Origin: Bacillota bacterium
GTDB lineage: Bacteria > Bacillota > UBA4882 > UBA10575
Length of the DNA: 55,480 bases
NCBI GenBank assembly: GCA_012727425.1
Contig: JAAYHQ010000046.1
Location: forward strand, 1 to 55,480
Direction of reading: 5' to 3'
The position numbers and the translations under genes were made by a program. Shown in pieces: positions 4,562 to 49,800 of this stretch. Under the pieces are notes generated by a model. That model searched no databases. It was not told the DNA's origin and saw nothing but the letters and a program-made list of their open reading frames with translations. Numbering within the stretch: position 1 is the first letter of the stretch; each line of letters begins with the position of its first letter.

Positions 4562-4648
4562 AAACCCCCTTCCGGTTCGCCGTCTGATGATCGCAACGGT
4601 CATCCCGAAAGAGAGCATCAGACCTCAAAAAAACCAAGGGGGTTTTTT
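4562..4648. terminator. Two-tier terminator hairpin between convergent aspartokinase and asparagine synthetase genes
   Basis: Outer stem AAACCCCCTT (4562-4571) pairs with AAGGGGGTTT (4636-4645) and runs into a T-tract (4643-4648). Inside it, TCTGATG (4583-4589) pairs with CATCAGA (4616-4622). The A-run on the left flank gives a T-run on the minus strand, so it can stop transcription from both sides. Confidence 0.75.
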
Positions 4649-6059
4649 AGTGGCTTTTTGCGGTGGACAGCGGCGCACCGGGTGCACTTGGCGTCCGCCC
4701 CACAAAAGACAAGTCCGTAAGCGAGCCAAAGTGTTCTTTAAAAATACGGTAATAAAACAGCTCTTCTTTGGTTTTGAGGTAAGAACCGTCCGGTAAACGG
4801 CGTTCGTTGCGGAAATCGGCATCGCTGATTTGGGCTTCGGCATAGGCCGCGATCTGATCCTCCACCCCAGCCCCCTCCCAGAACTTAACTTTAGGCCGCC
4901 AAAGAACAGCTTCCGGGAGTAAATCCGCCACCGCTTTGCGGAGAATCCATTTCTCCACCGGTTCTTCATCGGCTTTTTGGTACAGTTTGTACTCGACCGG
5001 AATCCGCACCGCTAGTTTAACCACCGGTGGCGCCAGGAACCCGACATAAGCGTCGGTTCCGTAGGCGGCCGCGGAACGGTCAACCCGCTGCAAAGCCGTA
5101 TTATGCAGGCGGTTAATACTGTTAATTAACTCGCCGTTAAGAGTTTCCGGCTCCAACTTTTTGTAGTAGTCATAACCGGCAAACAGCTCGTCCCCGCCTT
5201 CTCCGGAAAAAGCGGCCGGTACATAATCGGAGACCACTTTGGATACTAAATAATGGGTCACTGCCGAACGAATGAGCAGCGCATCAAAGGACTCCAAATG
5301 GTAAATGACCTCCGGTAAAACCCGCCATAGATCCTCCACCGTATAGACCGCCTCGTGGTGGATGGAGCCGATATAATCCGCAACTTCCCGGGCGTACTCC
5401 AAATCGGAAGCCCCTTCCAGCCCGCACGCAAAGGTGTGTAACCGGTCCACCCGCTGGCGGGCTAACGCCGCCAAAGTACTGGAATCAAGACCGCCCGAAA
5501 GGAGCGAGCCAACCTCCGTTTGGTCTTTTATATAATCAGCCACCGCTTGTTCCAATGCCTCCCGCAAGCGGCGCACTGCTTCTTCCTCCGGCAACGGCCA
5601 GGTGTCAACCGCCTTTAAACAAAAAAACCGTTGGAAACCCTCGCCAGAGATATATTTATAGCCGGGGGGAAATTCCCGTACCTTCGAGACGATCCCCACC
5701 AGCGCTTTTACTTCTGAAGCAAAGACTAAAGTGCCGTCGACCTCACCGTAATAGAGCGGTGAAATCCCGAGCCCGTCCCGGACCAGCATCACTTTTCCGT
5801 CCTGCACGGCGGCTAACGCTAAAGGCGTATCGGTCTCCACCCGGTCCAGATTGCGGGAGAAACGTCCATCCCAGACCGCGCTGCACCGGGGTTTGTTCAT
5901 GTAAGGAGGCCGCCCCCCCTTACGGTAGACCACCCCCAGGACGGCCCCGTTTTTCGCAATCACTTTTTGGCCGCCCGGTCCACGGTGGCGAATCTTCGCC
6001 AGCATCTTTTCCACCAGTTCACATTCGCCTGTCCGGCAAACACCAACAATCCCCGACAT
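4647..6059 (-). CDS. Asparagine synthetase B-like protein lacking the glutaminase cysteine
   Basis: Resembles AsnB, which makes asparagine from aspartate and ATP using glutamine nitrogen. The C-terminal synthetase domain is intact, with the ATP-pyrophosphatase loop SGGLDSS (residues 188-194) and SGEGGDELFAGYDYY. The N-terminal class II amidotransferase domain is degenerate: the start reads MSGIVGV, so the catalytic Cys2 is Ser (codon TCG), and the domain is short (about 150 residues). RHRGPGG and VRDGLGISPLYY remain. The start is firm, with AAGGAGGAG 4 nt before ATG. The likely reaction is ammonia-dependent asparagine synthesis; a partner glutaminase or another acceptor is possible. The neighbouring aspartate genes fit asparagine synthesis. 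The leader carries a TRAP-like triplet array. It lies 107 nt downstream of murD and may share its transcript. Confidence 0.87.
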   Translation of the reverse strand: MSGIVGVCRTGECELVEKMLAKIRHRGPGGQKVIAKNGAVLGVVYRKGGRPPYMNKPRCSAVWDGRFSRNLDRVETDTPLALAAVQDGKVMLVRDGLGISPLYYGEVDGTLVFASEVKALVGIVSKVREFPPGYKYISGEGFQRFFCLKAVDTWPLPEEEAVRRLREALEQAVADYIKDQTEVGSLLSGGLDSSTLAALARQRVDRLHTFACGLEGASDLEYAREVADYIGSIHHEAVYTVEDLWRVLPEVIYHLESFDALLIRSAVTHYLVSKVVSDYVPAAFSGEGGDELFAGYDYYKKLEPETLNGELINSINRLHNTALQRVDRSAAAYGTDAYVGFLAPPVVKLAVRIPVEYKLYQKADEEPVEKWILRKAVADLLPEAVLWRPKVKFWEGAGVEDQIAAYAEAQISDADFRNERRLPDGSYLKTKEELFYYRIFKEHFGSLTDLSFVGRTPSAPGAPLSTAKSH

Positions 6060-6076
6060 TTTCTCCTCCTTAAAAC

Positions 6077-6119
6077 CTGCTCTCCTCGGCTTATTCTTCG
6101 GCTCTCCTCAGCTCCTCTC
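6077..6119 (-). promoter_or_regulatory. Candidate TRAP (MtrB) binding site in the asparagine synthetase leader
   Basis: Read on the minus strand, eight triplets GAG, GAG, GAG, GAG, AAG, AAG, GAG, GAG occur at 6119, 6114, 6109, 6104, 6098, 6092, 6087 and 6082, with spacers of 2, 2, 2, 3, 3, 2 and 2 nt. A CAG follows directly. TRAP is known to bind about 9-11 (G/U)AG repeats spaced by 2-3 nt; AAG is a weaker triplet. The array ends 7 nt before the AAGGAGGAG ribosome site. A purine-rich leader arising by chance is the alternative. Confidence 0.35.
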
Positions 6120-6166
6120 TTTACCTTTCCGCATCGGCTTATGGTTTCCTCTTTAAATTTTTATTT

Positions 6167-7609
6167 CTAAATCGCATCTTTGCGCTTGGCCGCTAAGGCC
6201 AGTACTTCTTGTTTAAAAAGATCGCCCCGCTCCTTATAGTTTTTGAACAAATCAAAACTGGCACAAGCGGGCGAGAGCAAAACCACGTCGCCGGGCCGGG
6301 CAATTTCCTGCGTAACCGCCAGCACCGTAGCCATATTGGTACCTCCCTCCACCAGGAGGGGGACTTTTCCTTTTTCCGCTCCCAGCCCGATGATGAGCTC
6401 TTTTAGAACCGGCCCCATCTTCCCGATTAACACAACGGCCTTGACCGAGCTGGCAATAATCTCTTCGACCAAAGGCCGATAGTCGACCCCCTTATCAACA
6501 CCCCCGGCGATCAGCACTATCGGTTCTTGAAAAGCGCGCAAGGCCACGATTGTCGGTTCCGGTGCCGTCGCAAAGGAATCATCAAAGTATTGGACCCCAT
6601 CCACCGTCGCCACGTATTCCAGCCGGTGTTCCAATCCCTTATAAGTACTGATCGCCCCAACGATGCTCTCCCGGTCGGCGCCGGCCTGCGCGGCCGCCAA
6701 AGCAGCAGCGGCAATATTTAATAGGTTGTGTTCACCTCGGAGTTTAATCCGGTCGCTCCCGATCAATTCTTCCGGCTCCCCGGTCAGGTTCCAAAAAAGC
6801 TTATATTGGCCGCTGGCCGTCGGCTCATACCAGGCCCCGGGCGACAAGGCACTGCTGCCGTAAAGCAGCAGGGTTCCGGGGACCAACTCCCGCAGGGTCC
6901 GGCAGGTCGGATCCTCATTATTCAGAATCGTGACCCCGGAAGGATCCTGATGCCGGAAGAGATTGGTCTTAGCCTGGACATATGCTTCCCGGGATCGGTG
7001 ATAGTTGGGATTGTCAGGATCCGCTGCTGTTAAGTGATCTTCGGTAATATTTGTGACTACCGCAACCGGTACACTCTCGACCATATCCTCCAACTGAAAA
7101 CTGGAGAGCTCCAAAACGACCACATCATCCGCGGAAAGTTGCGGGAAAAAGGAAAAGGGCGCAATCCCGATATTACCCCCCAAATAGGTTTGGCCCCCCC
7201 GCCGGTGCTGACTGGCCACCAACATCCGGTGAATCAGCGCCGCCGTAGTGCCTTTTCCTTTGGTCCCGGTTACCCCAATAATCGGACAGGGACACAACGC
7301 AACAAAAAGCCGCATCGCGCTGGTAATCTCGACACCATGCTGTTTGGCGGCGATCAACTCCGGTTGGAATAGAGGTAAACCGGGCGAACGAAACAGGACC
7401 TGAAAATCATCCAGTCCTTCCAGATAAGACGGGCCAAGCCGGAAATCCACCCCAAAATTACGTAAGGCTGTATAACGTTCACCCAGTTGCCGCGGAGTGC
7501 GCCGGTCACACACCGTCACCTGCGCACCCTTTTGCAATAAAAAATTCGTTAAGGCCAGGTTTTCAATGCCGAGGCCCAATACCGCCACTTTTTTTTTCAA
7601 CTCCACCAT
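6167..7609 (-). CDS. murD: UDP-N-acetylmuramoyl-L-alanine:D-glutamate ligase
   Basis: Cytoplasmic Mur ligase that adds D-glutamate to UDP-MurNAc-L-Ala in peptidoglycan precursor synthesis. The N-terminal Rossmann-like domain starts VAVLGLGIENLALTNFL. The ATP loop is GVTGTKGKGTT, the central domain carries NITEDHLTA, and the C-terminal domain includes the HRLEYV and DDSFATAPE motifs of MurD. I place the start at ATG 7609, which has GGAGGAGAG just upstream, rather than at the TTG eight codons earlier. The gene stands outside a division and cell wall cluster; no other mur or fts gene is in the window. Confidence 0.95.
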   Translation of the reverse strand: MVELKKKVAVLGLGIENLALTNFLLQKGAQVTVCDRRTPRQLGERYTALRNFGVDFRLGPSYLEGLDDFQVLFRSPGLPLFQPELIAAKQHGVEITSAMRLFVALCPCPIIGVTGTKGKGTTAALIHRMLVASQHRRGGQTYLGGNIGIAPFSFFPQLSADDVVVLELSSFQLEDMVESVPVAVVTNITEDHLTAADPDNPNYHRSREAYVQAKTNLFRHQDPSGVTILNNEDPTCRTLRELVPGTLLLYGSSALSPGAWYEPTASGQYKLFWNLTGEPEELIGSDRIKLRGEHNLLNIAAAALAAAQAGADRESIVGAISTYKGLEHRLEYVATVDGVQYFDDSFATAPEPTIVALRAFQEPIVLIAGGVDKGVDYRPLVEEIIASSVKAVVLIGKMGPVLKELIIGLGAEKGKVPLLVEGGTNMATVLAVTQEIARPGDVVLLSPACASFDLFKNYKERGDLFKQEVLALAAKRKDAI

Positions 7610-12098: not shown

Positions 12099-12338
12099 CT
12101 AACGTCCCGCTACCATCGGCCCGTGTTTCGTTAAGATTTCTGCTTTCCCGCGGATCTTAATCGCTGATGTATGCTCAGTAAACTGGAAAATCATCACTTC
12201 GCCCTGGTCCAGCTTTTCCGTATGGTGAAATTTGGTTTCTTTACCCCGGGTTAATCCGATAATCGTCACTCCGTCTTCTAAGGCTTTAACCATAATAAAA
12301 TCGCCTAACACTTCTCCACCGCTTAAACCGGTATCCAT
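12099..12338 (-). CDS. mtrB: trp RNA-binding attenuation protein (TRAP)
   Basis: Close to Bacillus MtrB along its length: [33 protein letters not shown], and [13 protein letters not shown]. The tryptophan-binding threonines correspond to Thr30 and Thr35 here. The RNA-binding Lys/Lys/Arg set corresponds to Lys42, Lys61 and Arg63. TRAP forms an 11-subunit ring that, when loaded with tryptophan, wraps RNA with (G/U)AG repeats and causes termination or blocks translation. No trp gene or folE lies nearby, so its targets are elsewhere, except perhaps the asparagine synthetase leader in this window. AAAGGAGGATAAAG precedes the ATG. It is 17 nt downstream of the TrkA-C protein gene and likely co-transcribed. 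Confidence 0.95.
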
Positions 12339-49671: not shown

Positions 49672-49678
49672 GAGGATA

Positions 49679-49779
49679 CTCATCTTCCATAAACTGGAGG
49701 GATTTAGCACCGTTTGGAAAGCTACTTCCATGGTTGCCGGGTTTCATCGGGCCCTTTCCCTCCACCGCTCTTGATGAGT
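49679..49779 (-). promoter_or_regulatory. SAM-I (S-box) riboswitch
   Basis: On the minus strand: P1 ACTCATC (49779-49773) closing with GATGAGT (49685-49679). Inside are ATCAAGAG, GGTGGAGGGA, GGGCCCGATGAAACCCGGCA (the conserved core), and GGTGCTAAATCC. These are the hallmark S-box elements. High SAM should favour the terminator at 49671-49644 and turn metK down. Confidence 0.93.
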
Positions 49780-49800
49780 AGTTTATTAATTTTTAATTAG

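Follow-up and report, generated by a model that had tools for sequence, protein, structure and literature searches.

A predicted TRAP operator in the leader of a cysteine-less AsnB-like ligase gene

TRAP loaded with tryptophan binds RNA that carries multiple (G/U)AG repeats separated by spacers of 2 to 3 nt, and at trpG, trpP and ycbK its site lies in the translation initiation region, where it impedes ribosome binding (PMC11255114). The TRAP sites of Bacillus subtilis hold 9 to 11 NAG repeats, and a review of 2015 placed all TRAP targets in tryptophan metabolism (PMC4347634). Here we describe an array of NAG triplets in front of an AsnB-like ligase gene, in a 55,480-nt stretch of DNA from a member of the Bacillota (contig JAAYHQ010000046.1; the whole stretch is called the window below). 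We consider it likely, from the sequence comparisons given here, that this leader is a TRAP operator at which tryptophan-loaded TRAP binds and represses translation of the AsnB-like gene. TRAP and its operators are already known; the AsnB-like leader would be a new target, with its binding by TRAP predicted. We found no papers that link TRAP to an asparagine synthetase in the open-access literature.

The leader array and its position

Read on the minus strand (6119..6080), the array is GAG ag GAG ct GAG ga GAG ccg AAG aat AAG cc GAG ga GAG. It consists of eight NAG triplets, of which six are GAG and two are AAG, with spacers of 2, 2, 2, 3, 3, 2 and 2 nt (Table 1). A sequence-only reading of the same DNA had described these triplets and spacers, and we reproduced them exactly on the minus strand; the end that it gave for the array, 6077, is really 6080, and the ribosome-binding site follows after 8 nt rather than 7 nt. 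The array ends 20 nt before the ATG (6059) and adjoins the Shine-Dalgarno sequence without overlapping it, in the translation initiation region. The same reading had proposed a comparison with shuffled leaders, in which equal arrays proved rare: the array score was reached by 4 of 5,000 dinucleotide shuffles of the 110-nt leader and by 0 of 5,000 mononucleotide shuffles. Besides the leader array, no NAG chain with a score of at least 4.5 was found on either strand of the window, and the reversed-motif control gave one weaker chain, inside the same leader stretch.

Table 1. Positions of the array and of neighboring features in the window.
Feature	Position	Strand	Remarks
NAG array, GAG part 1	6119-6117, 6114-6112, 6109-6107, 6104-6102	-	proposed TRAP operator
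NAG array, AAG part	6098-6096, 6092-6090	-	proposed TRAP operator
NAG array, GAG part 2	6087-6085, 6082-6080	-	proposed TRAP operator
Shine-Dalgarno AAGGAGG	6065..6071	-	8 nt past array; aligned in 8/8 genus leaders
Gap between murD and AsnB-like gene, 107 nt, contains array	6060..6166	-	no Rfam match
Cys-less AsnB-like ligase, 470 aa, proposed to be TRAP regulated	4647..6059	-	PF00733
murD	6167..7609	-	upstream, same strand as AsnB-like gene
TRAP (MtrB), 79 aa	12099..12338	-	PF02081 and NF009724 matches

The predicted RNA structure of the leader showed no extra stability over shuffles (z of -0.46 and -0.78), and hence we propose no refolding mechanism. An Rfam scan of the window returned nothing at the array leader; its sole match was a SAM riboswitch elsewhere (RF00162, 75 bits, 49677-49780, minus strand). 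It is possible that murD and the AsnB-like gene are co-transcribed. A search of the minus strand of the gap between them found neither a promoter nor a terminator-like site, and the lack of a terminator-like site on this strand argues for translational rather than transcriptional control. We hypothesize that when tryptophan is plentiful, the tryptophan-loaded TRAP ring would wrap the eight triplets just upstream of the ribosome-binding site and bar the 30S subunit from the AsnB-like mRNA; at low tryptophan, TRAP would let go of the leader and the enzyme would be made. We infer the binding, its dependence on tryptophan, the repression of translation and an advantage for the cell, as well as a direct exclusion of the 30S subunit by a ring bound to an array that does not cover the Shine-Dalgarno sequence.

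TRAP might also bind here and act mainly on the processing or decay of the mRNA, or on murD if the two genes share a transcript. The array would suit such a role, as it has a gene of the same strand on either side and stops short of the Shine-Dalgarno sequence. We regard this as unlikely, however, given that the distance from array to ATG is held at 18 to 21 nt in all five array-bearing species, that the trpB2 arrays of the same genus (see below) extend into the start region, and that the minus strand of the gap is free of terminator-like sites. The kept distance, together with the lack of a terminator-like element, makes repression of translation the most likely outcome of TRAP binding.

Conservation of the array and its linkage to TRAP

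We compared 8 genomes of the genus (G000 to G007) and 16 of the family; the AsnB-like gene and TRAP are both present in all eight genus genomes. The spacing 2,2,2,3,3,2,2 precedes the AsnB-like ortholog in G000, G002, G005 and G007, and that of G003 is 2,2,2,2,3,2,2 because one base is absent from a 3-nt spacer, leaving 2. Conservation in relatives, a further check named in the sequence-only reading, was thus found in identical form in three relatives and with one spacer 1 nt shorter in a fourth. In G007 the array has nine triplets. When the full-array leaders of four relatives were shuffled by dinucleotides, 8, 1, 0 and 0 of 5,000 shuffles each reached the score.

Among the four arrays of equal length, 12 of the 16 spacer columns vary, but only 2 of the 24 triplet columns do. 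These two are first positions (G to T and A to G), and no triplet shows any change in its AG. The difference in variability is significant (Fisher test, p=2e-5), but since the test used only leaders that match the array, more weight falls on a control in which the register was slid by 1 to 4 bases, which weakened or reversed the contrast between spacers and triplets. Pairwise divergence is 31 to 56% in the spacers and 0 to 8% in the triplets, compared with 27 to 37% at fourfold sites of the AsnB-like gene. Judged by these rates, the spacers change almost as freely as neutral sites would, and selection keeps the triplets in place.

This pattern bears on whether the leader is instead a purine-rich region of the usual kind, serving as a translation enhancer or as a standby site for ribosomes, with the triplet register a by-product of its GA-richness. 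The leader is indeed GA-rich, a few dinucleotide shuffles do match the array score, and the leaders of G004 and G006 are purine rich with no array. However, conservation tracks the NAG register, in that spacers change, including to C and T, whereas the AG stays; because the spacers hold pyrimidines, a purine run is not the conserved feature. Moreover, reversed-motif controls are nearly empty across the genomes, and we consider an enhancer or standby region very unlikely. A TRAP gene does lie about 6 kb from the array in these genomes, but it is hardly credible that the array merely serves as a sponge or decoy for TRAP, or that it is a relic bound with no regulatory consequence: a sponge has no use for constant spacing from a single gene's start codon, and the strong selection on the triplets speaks against a relic.

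The strict array, which we read as a TRAP operator, is confined to one clade of five species that is supported in the protein tree. The G001 leader keeps part of the array and the G006 leader only scattered triplets, and yet both genomes still have the linked TRAP. No array was found in the G004 leader or in the sister genera.

TRAP is present in all 16 family genomes. The sequence-only reading had placed a TRAP gene at 12099 of the window, which is borne out by the two family matches (Table 1) and by the equivalents of B. subtilis E36, K37, D39, K56 and R58 in the encoded protein, the residues that contact RNA and tryptophan in B. subtilis. The gene order is malic enzyme, TrkA-C gene, TRAP, 152-aa membrane protein, YyaL-like, TPR, murD, AsnB-like and aspartokinase, and most of it is preserved across the genus wherever the available stretches show it. 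In G004 the block is syntenic, TRAP alone is gone from between its neighbors, and there is no array; the only TRAP of this genome is the one adjoining trpE, roughly 70% identical (L005, L102). This fits an array that depends on the linked TRAP, as a single case that is confounded with phylogeny and in which the TRAP on the trpE side is kept. The genus has two TRAP paralogs, about 70% identical, of which one is linked with the AsnB-like gene and the other adjoins trpE; G006 has both (L007, L009).

TRAP-type arrays elsewhere in the genomes

The eight genus genomes were searched with a strict pattern (six triplets, one mismatch allowed) and with a second pattern (six triplets, two 3-nt spacers permitted). 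In trp genes, the strict pattern matched the trpE leader, another site close to the trpE start and the trpB2 start region, and it also matched two sites after trpE (adjoining trpD in G007); outside trp genes, it matched the AsnB-like leader in G003 and one isolated site in G007, with one mismatch. The second pattern matched the AsnB-like leader in all five species, trp genes and one other site (in G001), and its reversed-motif control was empty in seven of the eight genomes. The trpE leader of G000 has a canonical array of nine triplets, one of them AAG, all spaced by 2 nt, and the trpE leader array is followed by a terminator-like stem and a T run. The trpE and trpB2 arrays are positive controls, in the same genomes, for reading such arrays as TRAP sites. 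No trpE was detected in G001, G002 and G003, which have kept TRAP; two of these genomes are less than 90% complete, and in G003, which is 94% complete, only trpB2 was detected of the two genes.

Past the leader terminator, close to the trpE start, there is another GAG array that is shorter than the leader array (for example, GAG ct GAG tt GAG tt GAG; L064, L065 and L066). At trpB2 (TIGR01415), seven genus members have an array of five to eight GAG triplets that extends into the start region (L070-L075, L077), about 100 nt upstream of the TIGR01415 domain match; trpB2 is likely a second translational target of TRAP. The G001 site (G001:C8:16646-16674; L103) is a six-triplet array directly before an alpha/beta-hydrolase-like gene, found in one species, and this gene may be a further TRAP target. 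We rejected the site as a trpE leader, the gene downstream being the hydrolase-like one.

In all, the TRAP-site reading of the AsnB-like leader came through the comparative tests and has the trpE and trpB2 controls on its side; weaker were the name first given to the gene and the placement of the array, which lies beside and not over the Shine-Dalgarno sequence. Several points count against a TRAP operator: the array has eight triplets, two of them AAG, compared with 9 to 11 in B. subtilis sites; it lies 8 nt upstream of the Shine-Dalgarno sequence, unlike that of trpB2 in the same genus; the strict form occurs in one five-species clade only; and a clear metabolic reason is wanting.

The AsnB-like ligase and the known TRAP systems

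The AsnB-like protein matches PF00733 at 212 bits and has the SGGLDSS and SGEGxDE motifs of an ATP-pyrophosphatase synthetase domain, but it scores below the family cut-offs (TIGR01536, 227.8 versus 267.1 bits; NF006949, 358.5 versus 499). Its N terminus reads MSGI or MAGI instead of the MCGI of AsnB, and the catalytic Cys of the glutaminase is absent; about 50 residues of the glutaminase domain are missing in all relatives of the protein. The missing stretch is the region of Arg-48, Asn-74, Gly-75 and Glu-76, the glutamine-binding residues of human ASNS (PMC6748925). This loss extends to relatives on contigs labeled Bellilinea, Atribacteria and Bacteroidales. The protein has FDALLIRSA where Escherichia coli AsnB has YDVTTIRAS. 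A separate AsnA is encoded next to AsnRS in G000, for which reason we rejected the AsnB-like protein as the sole source of asparagine. The protein belongs to the AsnB superfamily, but the lack of the glutaminase Cys, the truncated domain and the genome's own AsnA make the label of asparagine synthetase in the sequence-only reading doubtful, and we prefer AsnB-like. The neighbors of the gene include aspartokinase and an aspartate aminotransferase, and the product may be an aspartate ligase that uses ammonia, or its substrate may be a different one.

The Cys-less subfamily also occurs in other phyla (L014:4210-8344, L015:1458-5590). On contigs of the Bacteroidales type, the AsnB-like gene comes after two others, one of the octopine dehydrogenase family and one with a weak match to a B12-binding domain, a neighborhood that suggests an uncharacterized pathway.

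The bearers of the array are a small group of anaerobic bacteria in which tryptophan probably turns the AsnB-like gene off at the ribosome. If so, a TRAP operator before an AsnB-like ligase widens the TRAP regulon, and repression by tryptophan becomes a physiological clue to a widespread subfamily of Cys-less ligases. There is about an even chance that TRAP has been recruited to this gene outside known tryptophan metabolism, with tryptophan as a general signal of amino acid supply or with the ligase in an unrecognized step linked to the metabolism of tryptophan or aspartate. The drift of spacers beside triplets that stay provides a bioinformatic test for TRAP targets elsewhere.

Like the B. 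subtilis sites at trpG (an internal operon gene), trpP and ycbK, the AsnB-like leader has (G/U)AG-type triplets with 2- to 3-nt spacers beside a ribosome-binding site, in a genome that encodes TRAP. It differs in having eight triplets, including two AAG, instead of 9 to 11, in lying upstream of the Shine-Dalgarno sequence and in having an AsnB-like target with no known relation to tryptophan. The count of eight (nine in G007) is below the B. subtilis range, but the trpB2 arrays of the genus have five to eight triplets, and the range is a descriptive one. The attenuation leaders of trpE in this genus and in B. subtilis share the triplet rule, but they mix GAG and TAG and continue into a stem and T run, neither of which the AsnB-like leader has. 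The arrays at the trpB2 start are likewise mostly GAG and near a start codon; unlike the AsnB-like array, they cover the likely Shine-Dalgarno sequence and belong to a tryptophan gene.
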